DNA of 64,000 nucleotides, taken from positions 25,952,001-26,016,000 of the forward strand of contig CM072337.1 of NCBI GenBank assembly GCA_036874045.1, written 5' to 3'. A program made the position numbers and the translations under genes. The stretch's first letter is position 1, and each line of letters begins with the position of its first letter. This DNA comes from Cymodocea nodosa (Eukaryota > Streptophyta > Magnoliopsida > Alismatales > Cymodoceaceae). Positions 28,418 to 64,000 of the stretch are shown piece by piece. The notes beneath the pieces are model-generated. The model had not been told where the DNA came from and searched no databases. It saw nothing but the letters and a program-made list of their open reading frames with translations.

Positions 28418-28677
28418 GACCAGATCCAGGAGATGTACTTCTCCCCATTACAGGCGCCTCCCAGAAGCTTCCCTCCCTCCGCCCGTGGAAGAGTTTCGGA
28501 GAGAGAAAATGGGGGAGGGTTTGGGGAGATCCTTGTGATCTCGTCGTCGCCCACACCAACTGACCAAGGGGAAGATAGAATGGGACGGGGGAATATATAA
28601 ATCCATTTTTATTTATTTGTTAACTTAAATAATGTTCGTTTATCTATAACTATTTATTGATATTACATGTTTGATGT

Positions 28678-28749
28678 AAAATTAGGCTCACTAAGCTAGA
28701 CACTTCTCTATTAAAATTAGGCTCACTGAGCTAGACACTCCTCTATTAA
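28678..28749. repeat. Two tandem 35-bp units
   Basis: Two adjacent copies of a unit containing TTAGGCTCACTAAGCTAGAC differ at only about two positions, indicating a recent local duplication in intergenic DNA. Confidence 0.8.
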
Positions 28750-29284
28750 AATTTATTTAGAATTGCACCTTCGTTCATCTACAAATTAAAATTTGCATAT
28801 ATAAAAGACGTACATAAGAAGAAAGCATTCTTCATAATACAATCTTTTTTTGTTCAAAAGTTTGGACAACCACAAACATCAATACAAATAAATAAAGTTG
28901 TTAAAATTTATTAAAGTTAATAGGAGAGAATATTCAATTAAAACAGTAAAATTCAAAAGATAAGAATTTTTTTTTGGTTGTTTTATAATGTCTATGAAAA
29001 ATTTTTAAAAGATTCATTTGATCAACCTTACCTTAAGAAAATGTCTCACCAATACTTGAGAAACTTTTATTGCCTGTCTTGTGATGTTATGATATTTTTA
29101 TCATGAATATTGTCGTCGCATTTATGTCACTATTTAGTTTTCATGAGAATTGACGAAGGAATTAATATTACGATGAGAGAATCAATGACAATAATTGAAA
29201 ATACTAAAACCAATTAAAGGTAATAGAAGAGAAGATTATAACTAAAAGAGTAATCAAAGATAAGAGGAAGACAATGTGTATCTC

Positions 29285-51005: not shown

Positions 51006-54000
51006 TCATCTCTTGCGCTTGTGTGTCTTCCATTGTTTGATTACATATGCAATGGCTTCTTTTAGTGTTGCTTTCCTGTTCTCTTTGAAATTCCATAGTT
51101 CCGAAATGGGATATCTACCACTTCCGTTGTACTCAATAAGTTCCAACAGGGCTCTAACTACACTATCATACACTTCTTCTCCCCATTCATCTTTCAGCTT
51201 GGTTAGCTTGTCATCGTCTTCAACTACCGACTGCAACCAAAACATCAATTCAATATATTTGTGTCATGACACCAAGTATCCACAAAACTTCTACAATAAT
51301 AACCCAAAAAATAAGATTCCAATAATATAACATTATTTTGACGATAAAGCTATACACTGGATACATTAAACTGTTAAATTTTACAACAGTTGTACCTGCT
51401 CATTCCCATCCACAATAACAACTTTGCAAGGGTACCAGAAAGGATTTGCCAATTCTTCTTGCCATTTTGAAATCAACTCGGCATATTTAACATCGGCCAT
51501 GTCACCGTCAAATTGTTTCTTGCATGCAATTTGAAATGGTTTATCATCAAGTTCGCCCATTCTCTTTATCCCAATCAAAGACCGCCCACTTAGCATCTCT
51601 TTCAAGCCCTGCATTTTCCAAACTTTGATAATTTGAAATCACATAAAAAAATTATATGATGTCCTAGAAACACTAAAAACACTATTTCAGAAATTGAATC
51701 TTACAGAAATCAATTCATCGTGAGCTTCTTGTAACTCAATATTGCTCTTTCGTTCTTTTACAATGAGAGCTTGATTCAGAGATTCCATGTATTCCATTTC
51801 TTCCATCTTTTCTTTCAATTCACTGCTCATTTCATCTATCTTCTTCATAAATGATGAGTCTTCCTCGCCACCCATGAGCTTCATCACAGATAGCTTCCCC
51901 TTTAATTGTTCTATTTCCAACTCCAACTTTTGTTTTGCATCTAACTGTCTTTCAAGCTTGATTATTTTATCCAAAGCTGCCTCCTTCTCCCTCTATGAAG
52001 TGTTAATAATAAAAATACAGAAATATATCATACAGGACAATAACTAAATTGGATGGATACAATGTGATGCAAAGTCTGCAGTAAAAACCTTCTGCTCTTC
52101 AACAAGTTTCAGCACATTTTCATCTGCTCTTTGTTGCTCCAAAGTAGCTTGTTCAAGTGATGTGTTCCTCTTTGCATTCTGCAAAGACATTAGCATCACA
52201 TTAGCAACTATGTTGAAAACTTGCAAGAATCTTCATTTTGACAGTTCAAAGACAAAAATCAAACAGCTATTATTAAATTCGGCCAAAATTTAAAAGGGAT
52301 ATGGGAGAACACCAAAATTTTGTTGCTTAAAAAAGTGAAAAACATTTAAAATGACATAATATAACAGATACGACAGTGATGGATATGCATACTAATTGAT
52401 TTCTTATTGTAGATGTTATGGTTCAAGGGAAAAACCAAAAAACAATGTGGCCGCAATTTCATATCAATGATAAGATTCATGTTCAAAATAATATAGCAGA
52501 AAGGCGAACACAAAAAAAACCGTGAGACAATATACCATCTTATCAATCAAGTCATTAAAAGGTTTGGTTTCAAGGTGATTCTATCATGAATCGTGCAAGA
52601 AATAAACATGAACACTACAGTCATGTTTTTGCAGGAACAGCTTTGCTAATACAAGTAAAAATTAAATTTGCTAAAAACAATTTTTTATCATAACCGAATT
52701 TTCATGAAGAAATTAGTCAAATAATGAGATAAACATCTGAAACATCAGACCCATGTCAAACAGAAGTATTTTATATTTTCAACCAAAAAACATACTTGAC
52801 ACAATGAACAGAAGATCACACCACTGATCAATTGCTATAACAATACCTGTTCTCTCTCTTCTGCAAGTTTCTTTCTATCAGCCTCACTTTGGGCCACAAG
52901 CTCATCCAACTGTCTTTTTCTTCGTTCAAGTTCGTGTCTCTTGGAATCCAATTGCCCCTTCAGTTTAATATTCTCCTCCACAACCCTACGTGTGTGACCA
53001 CGGGCAAGACGTTGCAGTTGCTCCATTTCTAATCAAAGAAAAATATAAGAGATGAATCGATAAAATGCATAGTTGTAAAAAAATGTGCCAAAGTGTGATA
53101 ATAAACCGAACATTGATGAAAGAAGGTCCAGCACCTTTATTATACTTTTGATGAAGTTTTTCATTTTCTTCCATCCTATTTTGAAGAGATATGCTTGTCT
53201 CGTTGTACCTGTTAAAGTAAGGAAAACATTGATGAAAGAAAGACCAGCAACTTTGTTGTATTTTTGGTGAAAATATGTTATTGTCAGATTGTACCTGCAT
53301 TTTAATTCTTGCATACGTTTGTCTTTTTGCTCTATTTGGTTTGCCAAATTCGCAACTAACTTTTCATTTTTTCTGATCTCTTCGTTGGCCTTATCATCAA
53401 TTGACTTCAGATCACCATTCTTCCTCAAATGATGTCCTATGGGACCTTGTGAATTATAATCATCGGCTCGAGCTATCCATCCAAATAAACTTGAACTCCT
53501 GTGGCCTCTTTGTTTCCAATCCTTCTTCCCGCAGCATTGTGCTACAAAATAATTTTCAAATGCCATTGCATCCCTAAAACCAGACCACCCCTTTTCAAAC
53601 TCCACAATGGAATTTCCAGTGTGACCACTACAAATCCACAGTGGAATCACCTTCAAAGGATTGAATTTGGACAACTGTTCCTTCATCTTTGTCCCACTTT
53701 CCCCAACACTTCTTCCATCCTTCTTTACCGTGGGAACATTCACAACAATTCCCATCCATGGCCAGACAAACTGCTCATCATTGTTATGCTTCACAACAGG
53801 CTGCTTATCAATCACCATTGGCTGCAACATTGAGCTTGATGACTCTGATAGAACTTTTGTTAGATACCTTACAAGAGCTTGATGATTTGCCTTCACTTTT
53901 CCTTTCCTACTGGACGATGCCCCTATACCAGTGGCATGTTGAAGCAGATCCTTGTATTGATAAACCTGCTTCTTCTGACCAACACAGAAGGGGCACCGGT

Positions 54001-54121
54001 AGGTTCCATTGGGGTTCTTCACTCTACGATTCCCATCTTTCAGTTCGGAGTAAGATTTTTCCTCATACACCGAAATTTCGGAGTCGCTGACATCAGTGGA
54101 TTCTCCTGAGCTGATGTCCAT
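51006..54121 (-). CDS. FDM1: FDM/IDN2-family RNA-directed DNA methylation factor, copy 1
   Basis: Nuclear double-stranded-RNA-binding factor that works with IDN2 downstream of siRNA production to guide DNA methylation. Seven exons: 54121-53295, 53208-53135, 53028-52847, 52178-52089, 51992-51705, 51608-51396, 51230-51006. They give 632 residues with every phase consistent. A zf-XS zinc finger holds Cys43, Cys46, His62 and His80 (YRCPFC...LLQHATG). The XS domain covers about 117-232 ([40 protein letters not shown]). A long coiled coil spans about 240-490, and the XH domain about 497-632 ([11 protein letters not shown] to the end). The ATG at 54121 opens an acidic Ser-rich N-terminus typical of the family. 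The short intron 53209-53294 appears to be a recent gain, because copy 2 is continuous there. A leader intron may use the acceptor TTTGTTCGTAG near 54155. Confidence 0.93.
53209..53294 (-). repeat. 86-nt intron derived from a local tandem duplication
   Basis: Bases 53225-53271 (inside intron 1) match 53109-53155 (end of exon 2 and start of intron 2) at 40 of 47 positions. The block TTGTACCTG also occurs at both right-hand borders (53203-53211 and 53289-53297). The intron copy lacks about 30 bases of the exonic copy. Donor and acceptor both fall at AG/GT within the repeat borders. Confidence 0.8.
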
Positions 54122-56234: not shown

Positions 56235-59200
56235 TTATCTTCTGCGTGCAGTTCTCCACTTATCTATTAGAACGTGGAGTGCTTCATCAAGTGTTGCTTT
56301 CCTCCCGCACTTGTTCCAGATCTCTGGTGATACGTACCGTCCGTCCACGCTATTCACTTCCAGCAAAGCTGTGCAAACGGCTTCATGCACTTCATCACCC
56401 AATTCAGCCCTCAGTTGTTTCAGTTTTGGATCATCTTCATCAATCACATCCTGCAACATAAGGGGGGCAAAAGAGAATTTTTACAAATCACAAGTTGGAA
56501 GATAAATAATTAGTTGAAATGGTGCACAATCAAAATTGTGAACCTGAGACTTTCCATCTACAATCACCACTTTGAAAGGACGCCATTCCACCTTCTTTAT
56601 TTCCTCTTGCCACATCGAATGAATTTTCGCAGCTTCTACATCATGATCCAAGAAAATCTTACTCTCCTTGCATGCATGTAAAAATGGTTTCTTGTCCAGC
56701 GCACCCATCATCTTCACTTGAATCTTAGAATTCACATTTGTCACCATATTGGACAAAACCTAACTCATATAAAAGTAACTTTAATCATTATTGTATTCGC
56801 AGGATTTCCTGCAAACTGAATTCCAATTGTCAGAGGAGAAAATGTTACCAAGGTCAACTCTTTACGAGCTTCCTGCAATTCTTCTCTGCTAGATTTTTCT
56901 TTTATGACTAAAGGTTGATATATTGAATCCAAATATTCCATTTCTTCTATTTTTTCTTGCAGTTCTTCATTAAGCTTAGACACCTTATCCTTAAGCTCAG
57001 CCTCTGATTCCCCTCCCATATGTGCCACTATTTGTACTCTCCCTTTTAACTGTTCAATCTCCAATTCCAGCTGCTGTTTCATATCAAGTTGCCTTTCCAG
57101 CTGAAGGATTTTTTCAAAAGCAGTTTCCTTTTCTCTCTGTATATAAATTCTATAGAGGCTCAGATGTTTGCGAAGTAAGGGGAAAAAAAAATCAATAACT
57201 TGGGGTATTCTGGAAAGAAAGGTGTTATGCATCAGTTAACGGACGAACCTTGTGCACCTTAAGTAGCTCCATCACATTTCCATCAGCCTTTTTCTGCTCC
57301 AAAGCAGCATTCTGAAGTGCAATCATTTTGCTCTGCAATGGGAAAACGTGGATCTGACTTATTCATATAAATCTCGGCTCATTAGTTATTATTACAGTTC
57401 ACGAGTTTGTTTCCAACATATTAGGTATTTGAATCTCAAAGAAGTTTCTACATAGAAACATTTCCAAATGCCATAACAGACGGGAGAAGTTCATACATTG
57501 TGCTGTTGTAGGTAAAGCAAAAAATATATTGCAAGAATCAAAAGAAAGCATGGAATCCTGTTCTTGAAATTTATAAAAAATTGAAGCTAAATGATTAAGA
57601 ATATCTTAAACCAACATTTAATACAGCAGACAAACAAAGATTGCGCTTCCACACGTTCATTTGCATTGTCTACCGTTCTGGAAGAGTTCCAACTTCCTAG
57701 AAACACCAGATCACTGAACTGGTATAACTAAACAAGTGTAACAGTGACAAATGGCTCGTTATTAGTCTTTTAACAGATGACTACACCTCACACAACTACG
57801 ATTGGCTTATATTCCTTATAAGCATTATTATATAAGTAAAATACATATAATTATATAGGCATTATTATTTTCAATGAAGTCACTTTACAACATCAATATT
57901 GGGGGTGGTACTCATTTGTGATGTCACAGATGCACTTGGAATCAAAAAGCCCCAACAAAGGTTCGGTTCTTTGCACTGTACAGTAGACATAAAGGAGTCT
58001 TGGCTGAGATGCTTCTGAAGCACAATGGATGACAATTGGAAAGCTGCCACATTTTCTGTTGCGGTAACGACGGCTTTGGCACCCATTTTTCTGGAGAGGG
58101 CCCAACAAAAGTTCATGGAAAACCTTACTGGAAGACAGCAACATGAACAGGTTTGATGTTGAAGAATTCTTGGAAAGGTGGTGCAGGAAAGGAATGGAGA
58201 GACAAAACGTGTGTAGGCTGTGTGAACAAAGCTAAATGCATGCACTATGCAATGAAATGAGAAAGTTATCTAATCACTATACCCAAAGCCTTGAGGTGGG
58301 TTGGGGGCGGCACACAACGTTCTTTAGCAATGACAGCTGTAATCCGAGAATAACTATTGGAAAGTCTGAATTTAATGATGTATTTTGGGAACTGGAACGG
58401 AAGGAATTGCCAATTTCTGATTGCAATTTCAGACCTCTCCTATAATCAACAGAAGGGAATAGAGGCCCGGACCATTCAGATTTGAAGCAATGTGATTTCT
58501 GACTTTCAGTCCCTTGTCAAAGGTTGGTGAGCAGAGATCTAATGCAAAAAATGTTAAGAATTCTCAAATCCTTTGTTTCCGCACTTCTAATATTCAAAAT
58601 AACATTATAAGTAAAATAAATGAATCAACTGTATTCCTCTACGTTTGAACCTTGAATTTTCAATTAGGTCAAGGGACCTACAAACTATGATGTCCTAACA
58701 CATCAGCAAGAAACCAACAATCCTATCAAAGTTTAAGAAATAAAATGGAATGATCAAATTTCAAGTGGTTTAGGGATTTGGAGAGGATAATTAATTAGTG
58801 CAAAAGACACTAAAAGAAGTAAAGAAACACCTAAAACTACTTGATTAGAAATTATTTGAAAAAATTTAATTTAACAAAAGATATGACCATAAATAGGAAT
58901 ATATAGAATTGCTATTGTTGATCAAATTTCAAGTGATTTTATTTAATAACCACAAGTACCTAATAAGCTAATTGAAGTTCTAGTAATGAACAAAAATTAG
59001 TAACTTGATTAGAAATGTTGAAAAAATGATATCAACTTCACAAAGTACAACAGAAAATCTAGCAATAAATATAAATAGCTAGAGGAAAGGGACTCGTGTT
59101 AAAAAACCCCACATCGTGAGATTAAAATGCTGTTTGGTTGGGCAATTTTGAGGCTTTATGTCAAAAACACCAAGCACTGAGTCAAACGGTCAAAAGACAT

Positions 59201-62200
59201 AACATAAAATGCTCTGATCAAAAGCCACTTTAGAAAGTCTTTGAAAAAATGCTAGTGTTTTTTACATGCTTACCCTTTGTTTAGTCCTAAAATTTCAACG
59301 AAACATTTATCACTTTTTACACATAATCAACACAAATATATTTTCTCTATATTCTCACTAACACAACTCTTGACCAACCTTTCCAAACATAATATTATAT
59401 ACTAATATATATCCTATGGTGAAAAAATATATAGTGATAATATATAATATACTAGATTGTTTTATACATTTTGCTAGTATTATATTTATATAAAATATCT
59501 ATATATAGTACCAACTATAAATGAAAAATATTTATATTTGTAAAATCTATCATACATAAGGTATGCCATATAATAACATAGAGAATGTTATAAGCATTTT
59601 AAAAAAAACACTACTAATAATGCCGCACCAACCAAACACCATCATCCCATACTCAAAAACACTCAAAAAAATTGACTAAAAATGCCACACAAATATGAAA
59701 CTTATCCAAAAACATTGCAAGCAAAATCAAACCAAACACACACTAAGACATTAATTTTTGTTGTTGTAGGAAGCACCAAATATGAAAATAATCTCTCAAA
59801 TTGATCAACTTTTATTAGAAACAAGAGAAGACCTTGGATCTATCATTTTGTATGAGAGCTCTTTCTGAAAGCAAACACAATAGTTGATTTTTCAAAGCAA
59901 TAAGAACTTATTTGAATATGAAAAAAACAAAATATTGTTTAAGCATAACATGTGATGGAACAAAAAAAAAAAAACATGTGACCATTTTGCCTAAATCTAG
60001 AGAAAAAAAGAAGACAAATCGAGTGAATAAGACTCCAACCAATGCAGATTCTAAGGAAGGTCTAATCGTAAACAATTTTACTTCCATGAAAGGATGAGTC
60101 ATTTCCAAGTACTTGGACCTATTACCACCAGGATATAATGGAGTAACCTTACTATTGCACCAAGGCTTGCCCACACTTTGCTTAAAATTAGTCCTCAAAT
60201 AATTCAAAATTTGCTCTATACAACATGTCATGTGTAACCATTTCTCAAACATAGAAGAAAAGAAAGACATAGAAGATTAATGCACCCTATAAAGGAATAT
60301 TTTATTGTATGCAAATTATTCTATCTAATTCAAAATGATGTAAGAGTCTTGAAATGCATAGTCATGCTAGCATAAGCTATACTTTTGATCACAAATGTCT
60401 TAAAATTCAAAAGAAATGTTACCTTTAGCTGACACTGATCATCTAAAGTTTTTCTCTTCATATTGGTTTGCATCACCAATGCATCAAGTTGATTACTCTT
60501 AGTTTCCAGATCTAACCTTAATTTTGCATTATCCTCAATTATCTTACGAGAATGGTTGGATGCAAGATTACGAAGCTTCTGCACTTCTGTCAAAAAAAAA
60601 AATGAAAGCAATGAGACTGAATACAAGACGTGATAAATGTAAAGGGGAACATACATAGCAATGGATGTGTTATTCTGAACTTTGGATTCATTTGTAAATT
60701 AGTGCATGGATTTTTTAGCTCTTGGATATTATCCAAAAATGAAACCAAAAACAAGTGATTTTCTCTAACAAAAAATCCCAAAATATATAATGTGGTAAAC
60801 ACTAGTTTTTGCCTAATTTAAGACCTCATTTCCTACAAGAGAATATGGTGACCACATGAAAAGGATTCTTCTGAAATCATGATTTGAAGTTGCAATCTTA
60901 GTTAGAGGAAATTATCATGGTTTATATTCATATCAAGAACACCATACAAAGAAGTGGATATGCATAACAGAAAAGAAGAAAGATAAGAATGATATCTGGC
61001 ATAAATGTGCGAAAGAGAAGGATCAAATGAAGCCAAGACAATCTAATAGAGGTACAATTTGGAAGAAGCAAGAGATTAAGAAATACTAGTCAGAGTAGCA
61101 GCTTAATAGAGGCAAAATTAAAAAGAACAGGGATATTATCAAAGTTTTGATAATGAAAAGTTACAGTGCATGAGAATTTCGACAGAACAATGACAGTAAT
61201 ACATAGTTTGCAATGATGGTATAGTAAGAATGGGCAACACCACAGGCACATACATCAAGAGGAACTAGACAATCATGTGACTCACCCTGGCACTTCCCTT
61301 TAAATTTTACGGAATGAGCACTACAATTATCTCTATCTAATTAAACTGAATGGTCAATTGTCAAACGAAATGTAGCTTTATCAAAAGCGTCCAGTGATGA
61401 TTATGAGCAAAGCTTCACAGCATATTAACAGATGACTCAATTTCTCAAATAAATGAGGTATGGACTTAACACAGAAATGCAAAAACCTTAGTGGAAGTAA
61501 GAGGCTATGTTATACCAAGATTATAAGCATCAAGCGTCTTCTTCCTCTCCCCCATCATTTTCTCAAGGCAAGAGCTTTGCTCGTCGTACTTAACCTTCAA
61601 GGCCTCCACGTGCCTATCCCTCTCCACGATCTGCTCCTCGAGCTTCGCCACTAGCTGCCCCTTCTTCCTCGTGACGCCGGTCGAGAGTTCATCCACCGTC
61701 AACAGCTCCCCCTTCTTTCTCAACTGCTGTCCCACCGGCCCATCAGAGTTGAAATCATCCGCCCTAGCAATCCACCCGTAGATCACCATCTCATCATCAC
61801 CCTTTCTCGAGCCCTTGCCTTTGAACCACGCGCTCTTCCCAAGCCCACTCACCTCGTAGTGGCGGTGGAACGCCATGGCATCGCGGAAACCCTTCCAGCC
61901 CTTGGTGAACTCTACCAACGCGAAGCTTGAGTGTCCGAGATAAGTCCAGACGGGACGAACATGAACAGGGCAGAATCTCGTGAGTTGATCTCGCAACTTG
62001 GAGCCGCTCCCTCCCACCTGTCTGCCACTTCCCAGCTCAGCTCTGGTTGGGACGTTAGCAAGGACTCCGGCCCACGGGTAAACGAACCGTTCGTCTTCGC
62101 GGTCATTGTCGCCGCCATCCTTTGATGGTGGTGGTTGAATGTCCGTGTTTGGTTCTAGAGGGACTTGGAGGAAGGAACAGAGGGCACGGTGGGAGGCAGA

Positions 62201-62419
62201 CTGGGAAAGCGTGCGGGAGGATGAGGAACCGACGCCGGTGGCGTGCTGGAGGATCTCATTTTTGGGGTAGTTCTGCTTCTTCCTCTGGGGGCAGAACGGG
62301 CAGCGGAACGTGCCGTCGGGGTTTTGCGTGCGGAACTCTTCCCCGCCATTCTTGAGCTGGAGGAAGTACCGGCCCTCGTCGCCGTCGCCGTCGCCGTCTG
62401 TGTTAGCCGTGGCGTCCAT
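56235..62419 (-). CDS. FDM1: FDM/IDN2-family RNA-directed DNA methylation factor, copy 2
   Basis: Tandem paralog of the gene ending at 51006, with the same nuclear role expected. Six exons: 62419-61516, 60586-60423, 57332-57249, 57136-56849, 56759-56544, 56450-56235. They give 623 residues, all in frame. The zf-XS finger holds Cys40, Cys43, His59 and His77. The XS domain covers about 109-232 ([44 protein letters not shown]). The coiled coil runs through exons 2-4, and the XH domain lies in exons 5-6 (KMMGALDKKPF to the end). Exon 4 is 288 bp, exactly the size of its counterpart in copy 1. The ATG at 62419 is the first in frame; the codon at 62455 is GTG and was not used. The first exon is much GC-richer than that of copy 1, with a GAC/GGC repeat coding an Asp-Gly run. 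Intron 2 is 3.1 kb with MITE-like sequence. Confidence 0.92.
58750..59050. repeat. Imperfect direct repeat in FDM copy 2 intron 2
   Basis: Segments near 58750-58880 and 58918-59050 share GATCAAATTTCAAGTG and ACTTGATTAGAAAT in the same order and similar spacing, indicating an old tandem duplication within the intron. Confidence 0.5.
59125..59750. mobile_element. Possible MITE with TGTTTGGTT termini
   Basis: The left side carries GCTGTTTGGTTGGGC at 59130. Candidate right ends are CCAACCAAACACC near 59630 and ATCAAACCAAACACACAC near 59728. TGTTTGGTT-type inverted ends are common in plant Tourist-like and hAT-like MITEs. The exact ends and target duplication could not be settled, and there is no coding content. 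Confidence 0.3.
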
Positions 62420-62639: not shown

Positions 62640-63555
62640 CAATCAGAACTTCTTTAACAACTATAGTAACAGCAATAAAATTAATTTTTTTATCTTGTTA
62701 ATAAATTTTTTGCTATCTTATCTCTTTTATTTTAGACCTATAAGATTTTTAAATGACTTTTACAAAATCTTAATTAGTTAAATACTGAGCCTTTAGATTA
62801 ATTTTTTTCTAAATAAAGTTACCTCAAATACTTAACATACTTTCTTTAATAAAAGGAATCTTCGTTGAAAGTATATTTTGAGAGAATCTTGCATACAACC
62901 GAGTAGATTACTGTTTAAAATCAATCAAAGATAGCAACATTATAAATAATCTTATCTCAAAAAAAATCCATAATTACATTTAAAAAAACATTAGTCATTT
63001 CTGTTGCAATCGATGCACAAGCATCGGTATCCATTTCATCGATAAATTGTAAGGCCCTCAGTATTAACAATTTGAGTGCTTCACAAATGACCATATATGA
63101 ATTTTATTTACGGTTGCAAAGGGTCACATCTACCATGCAAACGGTGCAAAGTTGCATCATCATTCGATCTTCCGAGCGTATCTCCACACGTGTGGGGCAA
63201 AAATAAAAGTAATCAAAACTAACTTGCCGGGGGAGAGTTACCTCTATCCTCTACTTTTTAAAGTGATGTCATTACATGACGAAAAATTTTGACAAAAAGA
63301 AAATTCTGAGAATGATTTAATGTAGAATGAAAAGTTTTGATAAAAATTTTGATGAAAATTTAGTATATGATGGAAAGTTTTAATAGAAATTTTAACGAAT
63401 GTTTATTACAACTAATATTTGAAAATAAGAAGAAAATCTTAGAAAAAAGGAAATTTAATTATTTATTATAATTAATATTTAAAAAATATAAATACATCTT
63501 AATTGAAATATTACAATACTAAATAATATCAATTAGTTCTTCCATACTATATTGA
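62640..63555. other. Intergenic region upstream of FDM copy 2
   Basis: AT-rich sequence. No gene is seen, and no clear TATA element for copy 2 was identified. 63280-63540 may be flank of the adjacent decayed Harbinger element. Confidence 0.45.
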
Positions 63556-63559
63556 CATC

Positions 63560-64000
63560 ATCATATATTCTCGCATCTTATCTGCTATTTCTTTTCTTTG
63601 TTCTTGAGTCATTCGAACTTGTGCATTACTTTCCATATGTATCTCTCTTATTGGTTATATGTCATCAATAATATTTAACTCTTCCAACTCATCTTGTAGG
63701 TCTTTAAGTAAATCTTCTTTATCAATCTTACAAATAAAATTATGAAGCAAAAAACATGCGATGACAATCTTCACTTGTGTTTTATATGGATATGGCATTT
63801 GACATCATAATATTGAGAATCAATGTTTCACAACTCCAAATGTACACTTAATGACTATTCTAAGTTGTGAATGTATTTAGTTAAAATTTTTTATAGTATT
63901 ACGAGAAACTCTATTATTAATATAATCAAATAGATGATATCTTACACCTCGATATGTATAAATATATTCTGATCGATTTGGATATCTAACATCAACGAAG
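63560..64000 (-). pseudogene. Broken PIF/Harbinger (ALP1-like) transposase, cut by the right edge
   Basis: Minus-strand translation from the right edge gives the C-terminal part of a DDE_Tnp_4 nuclease. Blocks seen are YTYRGVRYHLFDY, then LRIVIKCTFGVVKH, then YPYKTQVKIVIACFLLHNFI, and an acidic end followed by QVRMTQEQRKEIADKM. These follow family order (PYRGTRYHL, RNVIERAFGVLK, KTQVKIVLACCALHNFI). In-frame stops fall after the first and second blocks, so the copy is inactive. The N-terminal part would lie beyond 64000. Confidence 0.8.

Follow-up and report, generated by a model that had tools for sequence, protein, structure and literature searches.

A predicted intron most likely gained by tandem duplication in one of two adjacent FDM/IDN2-type genes of Cymodocea nodosa

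Two tandem genes and an extra predicted intron

The window analysed here, a stretch of 64,000 nucleotides, is part of contig C5 of the Cymodocea nodosa genome (374.6 Mb in 28 contigs). On its minus strand lie two tandem genes, each with zf-XS, XS and XH domains as detected with Pfam. The occurrence of these three domains in a single protein is what defines the FDM/IDN2 family, and both copy 1 and copy 2 have all of them; the naming of the two genes as FDM or IDN2 beyond this domain content is our assumption, and we take genes of this kind to encode factors of RNA-directed DNA methylation. The exon-intron models (Table 1) were predicted from homology and splice signals alone, giving seven coding exons and 632 amino acids for copy 1, and six coding exons and 623 amino acids for copy 2. 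In copy 1, exons 1 and 2 together match zf-XS (4.2e-20) and XS (6.1e-41), while exons 3-7 (51006-53028) encode a coiled coil and the XH domain (2.6e-51). The first exons differ strongly in composition, with an A+T content of 42.0% in copy 2 (61516-62419) vs 57.8% in copy 1 (53295-54121). At the end of the window, 63541-64000 on the minus strand resembles the worn remains of a transposase, which were recognised by eye and which we presume, from the motif, to be of the PIF/Harbinger type.

Table 1. Positions of the predicted genes, the repeat copies and related features (numbered within the window unless a contig is given; a slash marks the splice junction)
Feature	Position	Strand	Remarks
FDM copy 1 exon 1 (zf-XS and XS domains)	53295-54121	-	827 nt; open frame from ATG
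Copy A, predicted new intron 1 of FDM copy 1	53209-53294	-	86 nt; phase 2
Ends of predicted intron 1	53294-53209	-	CAG/GTACAA ... TTTAACAG/G
5' proto-splice site	53289-53297	-	CAG/GTACAA; donor of predicted intron 1
3' proto-splice site	53203-53211	-	second CAG/GTACAA; acceptor of predicted intron 1 and possible donor 53208
Relic of old exon 2 donor in copy A	53247-53252	-	placed by alignment; U1 duplex -2.3 vs -5.3
Copy B	53093-53208	-	116 nt; exon 2 (74 nt) and 42 nt of intron 2
FDM copy 1 exon 2 (exonic part of copy B)	53135-53208	-	74 nt
FDM copy 1 intron 2	53029-53134	-	AAG/GTGCTG ... TTAG; position and phase as copy 2 intron 1
FDM copy 1 exons 3-7	53028-52847, 52178-52089, 51992-51705, 51608-51396, 51230-51006	-	
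FDM copy 2, tandem paralog	56235-62419	-	zf-XS, XS, XH
FDM copy 2 exons 1-3	62419-61516, 60586-60423, 57332-57249	-	
FDM copy 2 exons 4-6	57136-56849, 56759-56544, 56450-56235	-	
C6 locus	C6:24812810-24813217 (L018 5802-6542, 2282-2556)		decayed relative of copy 2, several stops

By phase (1, 0, 0, 0, 0) and protein alignment, the five introns of copy 2 pair with introns 2-6 of copy 1, with intron 3 and its counterpart agreeing to within one residue. The predicted intron 1 of copy 1 is extra and has no counterpart in copy 2. A first-pass annotation of this DNA had proposed that the intron arose by local tandem duplication, and its description of the paralog stands: the first exon of copy 2 runs through the site without interruption. 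That exon measures 904 nt, or 301 codons plus one nucleotide; exons 1 and 2 of copy 1 sum to 901 nt (827 + 74), or 300 codons plus one. The 25 codons reported between the site and the next junction are also found, as 24 whole codons and one split codon, in copy 1, in copy 2 and in a further paralog on contig C1. The gain thus costs no residues, as had been claimed, since the codon count of copy 1 equals that of both paralogs.

Exons 1 and 2 of copy 1, searched against the whole genome, gave five matches: copy 1 twice, copy 2, the C1 gene and a locus on contig C6. The first exon of the C1 gene is open through the site, and pieces of an XH domain, presumably part of this gene as well, lie 12-14 kb beyond it. 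The C6 locus is a pseudogene whose pieces reach 76% protein identity to copy 2; the intact paralogs, copy 2 and the C1 gene, are 41-43% identical to copy 1. Intron 1 is absent from all three of these other family loci covering the site in the genome. The gain is polarised by these paralogs only. Candidate outgroups were sought as plant contamination in viral contigs, where exon 1 of copy 1 found one stretch and a three-sequence alignment found 51, and in bacterial and archaeal genomes, where 101 stretches were found; no relative was among them. Places with an XS domain on contigs C9, C11 and C13 were set aside as outgroups, as two of the four compared were weak XS-only matches and two were unmatched. 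At C18:1085740-1085835, an isolated piece of an XH domain covers 32 of its 131 positions. For grape, the available text of PMC9780290 gives 6-7 exons in the IDN subfamily, without positions, which is compatible with a six-exon base, and no intron positions for the gene family are given in the available text of PMC6631971 and PMC3342958.

The repeat spanning intron 1 and its predicted splice sites

Over its full length, predicted intron 1 (copy A) is a diverged duplicate of the 116 nt that come after it (53208-53093; copy B), with 30 nt of exon 2 absent. Allowing one 30-nt gap, the copies are identical at 63 of 86 positions, as compared with at best 42 matches among 5,000 dinucleotide shuffles. 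The alignment comprises a 62-nt block at a spacing of 116 nt (48/62 identical) and a 30-nt block at a spacing of 86 nt (22/30), levels reached in none and in one of 20,000 dinucleotide shuffles, respectively; it is less certain in its left block (17/25) than in its right block (46/61). We confirm the 40/47 match of 53225-53271 to 53109-53155 from which the duplication was first proposed. It had been read as a repeat of the exon 2/intron 2 junction, and that junction is indeed copied, but the repeat is larger and spans all 86 nt of the intron. Apart from these two segments, the next best match to the 47-nt repeat in the window reaches 28/47 on the plus strand and 26/47 on the minus strand. Ungapped direct repeats of at least 40/47 at offsets of 48-300 occur at two places in the whole window, one of which is intron 1; the other is 33554-33600/33738-33784, at an offset of 184. 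Separately, a 35-nt unit is repeated 2.2 times with 95% match at 28677-28753 and is unexplained. The ends of the duplicated unit share a possible microhomology of two bases (CA), read by eye.

Searching the genome with the 86-nt intron gave no match other than itself (E <= 1, very common words skipped). An origin from a transposon, an introner or another mobile element was rejected, because this search showed no repetition of the sequence elsewhere in the genome. Alternatively, intron 1 could be an old intron that was lost from the paralogs and whose sequence was later overwritten by duplication of its neighbour. Intron losses are generally common, but the duplicated unit covers the intron from border to border and leaves no older sequence, and losses would be needed in both the copy 2/C6 and the C1 lineages, though under some rootings a single loss might suffice; we regard this history as highly improbable.

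At each border of the intron the motif TTGTACCTG is present (53203-53211 and 53289-53297), so that both predicted splice sites fall on a duplicated AG/GT within CAG/GTACAA, as the first-pass annotation had noted. The mechanism it invoked, duplication of an AGGT-containing segment, needs revising as to the copied unit, which consists of an exon together with the start of an intron rather than of exon alone. The strict Rogers model, with a wholly exonic unit, does not describe this case, as intron 2 contributes 42 of the 116 nt.

The donor 9-mer of intron 1 is identical to that of intron 6 of copy 1 (51395). In duplex energies computed with the U1 5' end, this donor scores -7.3 kcal/mol, a value that intron 6 shares and that only intron 3 (-7.7) exceeds within the set of 11 FDM introns. 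Position 53208, taken as a donor, scores -7.6, the strongest of 12 listed GT sites between 53029 and 53400, and the predicted exon 2 donor at 53134 (AAG/GTGCTG) scores -5.3. An AG/GT within an exon can thus match U1 better than the exon's own donor, which here lies 74 nt further on. With a weak site at 53134 and a stronger AG/GT (-7.3 to -7.6) at the start of exon 2, skipping of exon 2 or recursive splicing is a possible by-product. At the acceptor end of intron 1, 14 of the 20 nucleotides before the NAG of AACAG are pyrimidines (range across the 11 introns, 8-16), and YTNAY motifs place an A at 25, 10 and 4 nt. Composition counts against splicing: intron 1 is not enriched in A+T (69.8% vs 70.3% in exon 2), and its T content of 36% is the lowest of the six introns of copy 1, the others having 43-48%. 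There is no support for copy A having been selected for a pyrimidine tract, with 29 pyrimidines in its last 41 positions vs 27 in copy B. We infer that the predicted intron is probably spliced.

A conserved copy, a worn copy and their reading frames

The piece of protein encoded by copy B (24 residues) aligns without gaps to both copy 2 and the C1 gene, with BLOSUM62 scores of 38 and 57 that none of 20,000 shuffles reach. Aligned without gaps, copy A scores -17 and -20 against the same two sequences; when a gap of 10 residues is allowed and the same columns are compared, it scores 8 and 24, vs 24 and 37 for copy B. Because copy A scores below copy B against both paralogs, the copy inside the intron is the worn one. 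Copy A has also lost the old donor of exon 2, which reads AAAG/TTGCTG as compared with AAAG/GTGCTG in copy B, a change of the donor GT to TT.

The two copies differ at 23 of 86 sites (73% identity; Jukes-Cantor distance 0.33). These differences are spread over the exon-derived part (12/44) and the intron-derived part (11/42), and this similar divergence fits a single event followed by drift. Between copy A and copy B, 7.7 of 22 changes are synonymous and 14.3 nonsynonymous; in an unconstrained simulation the 5-95% range is 3-9 synonymous changes with a mean of 5.7, such that the observed value lies inside the range and above the mean. All four differences in the segment HQKYNK, which was picked after the fact, are synonymous. 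The frame of copy A has stayed open, an outcome with a chance of 54% under neutral simulation, and the 30 nt that it lacks amount to a whole number of codons (10).

The suggestion that the gain is recent is not borne out. With copies that are only 73% identical, the event need not be recent. Substitution rates in plants are 1e-9 to 1.5e-8 per site and year, so the duplication may be roughly 10 to 165 million years old, a range too wide for use. As the duplication is not fresh, the intron is likely common to relatives of the species. The same divergence bears on the origin of the repeat as an artefact of assembly or sequencing. Short local duplications can be assembly errors, but no such error would introduce 23 differences over 86 sites along with a 30-nt gap, and we reject this explanation as next to impossible.

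Retention of intron 1 had been expected to shift the frame. This is correct if exon 2 ends at its predicted donor (53134), in which case the first stop comes after 351 amino acids, but with 53208 as donor the frame stays open to the normal stop and gives 636 amino acids. Two other forms were rejected: skipping from 53294 to 53028 as the normal form, with a stop after 289 amino acids, and use of the GT at 53251 in copy A, with a stop after 312. The early stop upon retention with the normal exon 2 donor would be in keeping with a duplication that broke the gene, the apparent intron never being spliced. However, the 632-amino-acid model stays open across its seven exons, its zf-XS, XS and XH matches each exceed the Pfam cut-offs, and a divergence of 0.33 per site represents time enough for decay of the kind seen in the C6 pseudogene. 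We therefore find it very unlikely that copy 1 is not correctly expressed.

The open frame of copy A, the gap of whole codons and the 636-amino-acid retention form together leave room for a coding role of copy A. In one version, no new intron would be used at all: copy A would lie within a longer first exon (53209-54121) spliced from 53208 to 53028, copy B would be an intronic relic, and the main product would be the 636-residue protein with a replaced segment. Consistent with this are the open frame to the normal stop, the strength of 53208 among the 12 listed donors relative to the weaker 53134, and the synonymous differences in HQKYNK. Against it, the length and sequence of the paralogs are kept by copy B and not by copy A, 10 codons would be lost and a hydrophobic, intron-derived stretch added to the coiled-coil region, and the substitutions in copy A look unconstrained overall. 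As the main form, this transcript seems to us quite unlikely. In a second version, which we consider unlikely as well if somewhat easier to entertain, both copies would be used: copy A (retention with donor 53208) and copy B (intron 1 removed, donor 53134) would be mutually exclusive, frame-compatible versions of the coiled coil (636 or 632 amino acids). The duplication would then have left a splicing switch, in which CAG/GTACAAC serves as acceptor in one route and as donor in the other, with the potential for recursive splicing once intron 1 is removed, and the gain would have been neutral from the first generation through several routes that keep the frame.

A proposed birth of the intron and its relation to known gains

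Judged from the DNA itself, predicted intron 1 of FDM copy 1 is most likely a new example of a known mechanism, intron gain by tandem duplication. We think it probable that a 116-bp tandem duplication occurred in the lineage of copy 1, after which the upstream copy became the new intron and the downstream copy stayed coding. The duplicated unit would have run from the CAG/GTACAA inside the original first exon, past the end of that exon and 42 nt into the next intron. The donor of the new intron would be the exonic GT at the left edge of the upstream copy and its acceptor the copied AG where the two copies join, with the coding role kept by the downstream copy.

At birth, the unit presumably measured 116 nt, which is not a multiple of three, and three splicing routes would have kept the frame. 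First, the old donor of the first copy, which probably still worked at that stage, could be joined to the old acceptor, giving the same mRNA as before. Second, the new intron could be removed, again giving the same mRNA. Third, the whole first copy could be read, with the AG/GT at the junction serving as donor, which would add 42 nt, or 14 codons; the 116-nt unit contains no stop when read in frame. Since the first two routes give the same mRNA, the duplication would have been silent at once, with no need for a broken intermediate. Later, the first copy would have lost its donor and 30 nt by drift, leaving the new intron as the route to the ancestral protein. This order of events after the duplication is our reconstruction.

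Gains by this mechanism have been described before. In the model of Rogers (1989), taken up by Hellsten et al. (2011) with the vertebrate gene ATP2A1, an exonic AGGT is duplicated (as related in PMC4974935 and PMC3443670), and according to papers citing Hellsten et al., one gain by tandem duplication has been reproduced in vivo. As described there, donor GT and acceptor AG come from two copies of one AGGT and the protein is unchanged, as we propose for FDM copy 1; unlike in that model, the unit of copy 1 is partly intronic, taking 42 of 116 nt from the neighbouring intron. Internal gene duplication with creation of introns was treated by Gao and Lynch (2009; cited in PMC3443670), and Table 1 of PMC3443670 lists 188 gains by tandem duplication in Arabidopsis, Oryza and others, such that the event in copy 1 would belong to a class already counted in plants. 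In Drosophila, introns among near intron pairs have been attributed to tandem duplication (Lehmann et al., 2010; PMC2891723). There, as proposed here, a proto-splice site was duplicated and one copy intronized, with NMD put forward as a backstop for retained forms; the Drosophila cases were inferred from proto-splice sites after similarity had gone, whereas the source of the intron in FDM copy 1 is still legible.

The second intron of the potato RdRp gene PGSC0003DMG402000361, gained by tandem duplication (Ma et al., 2016; PMC4974935), offers a likeness in that it concerns a plant gene, a unit that crosses an intron-exon boundary and a donor from formerly exonic sequence. The boundary crossed is on the acceptor side in potato and on the donor side in FDM copy 1. 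As reported there, the potato unit took in the last part of an intron along with the beginning of the exon that follows, and the new intron thereby inherited its acceptor, pyrimidine tract and branch site. The unit in FDM copy 1 runs from the last part of an exon into the 5' beginning of an intron; only the proto-splice site AG/GT was copied, and the new intron would have formed its 3' half out of sequence that was once the 5' part of intron 2. RNA-seq and an outgroup phylogeny back the potato case, whereas ours is read from sequence. PMC4974935, which stresses that gained introns with a source still readable are uncommon, quotes two conditions for strong evidence of a gain, a source element and a clear phylogeny; for FDM copy 1 the source element is present and the phylogeny is clear only in part. 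No earlier report of this intron, or of any gain in an FDM/IDN2 gene, was found in a limited survey of the literature.

FDM copy 1 is thus a clear, though not unprecedented, example of an established mechanism, with an unusual unit. Because the old donor of the exon lies within that unit, silent splicing through either copy could have been available initially. A unit that spans an exon-intron boundary and brings its own donor is a route left out by the exonic model, and the idea of a silent birth would make it testable how an intron can arise without being harmful at the outset.
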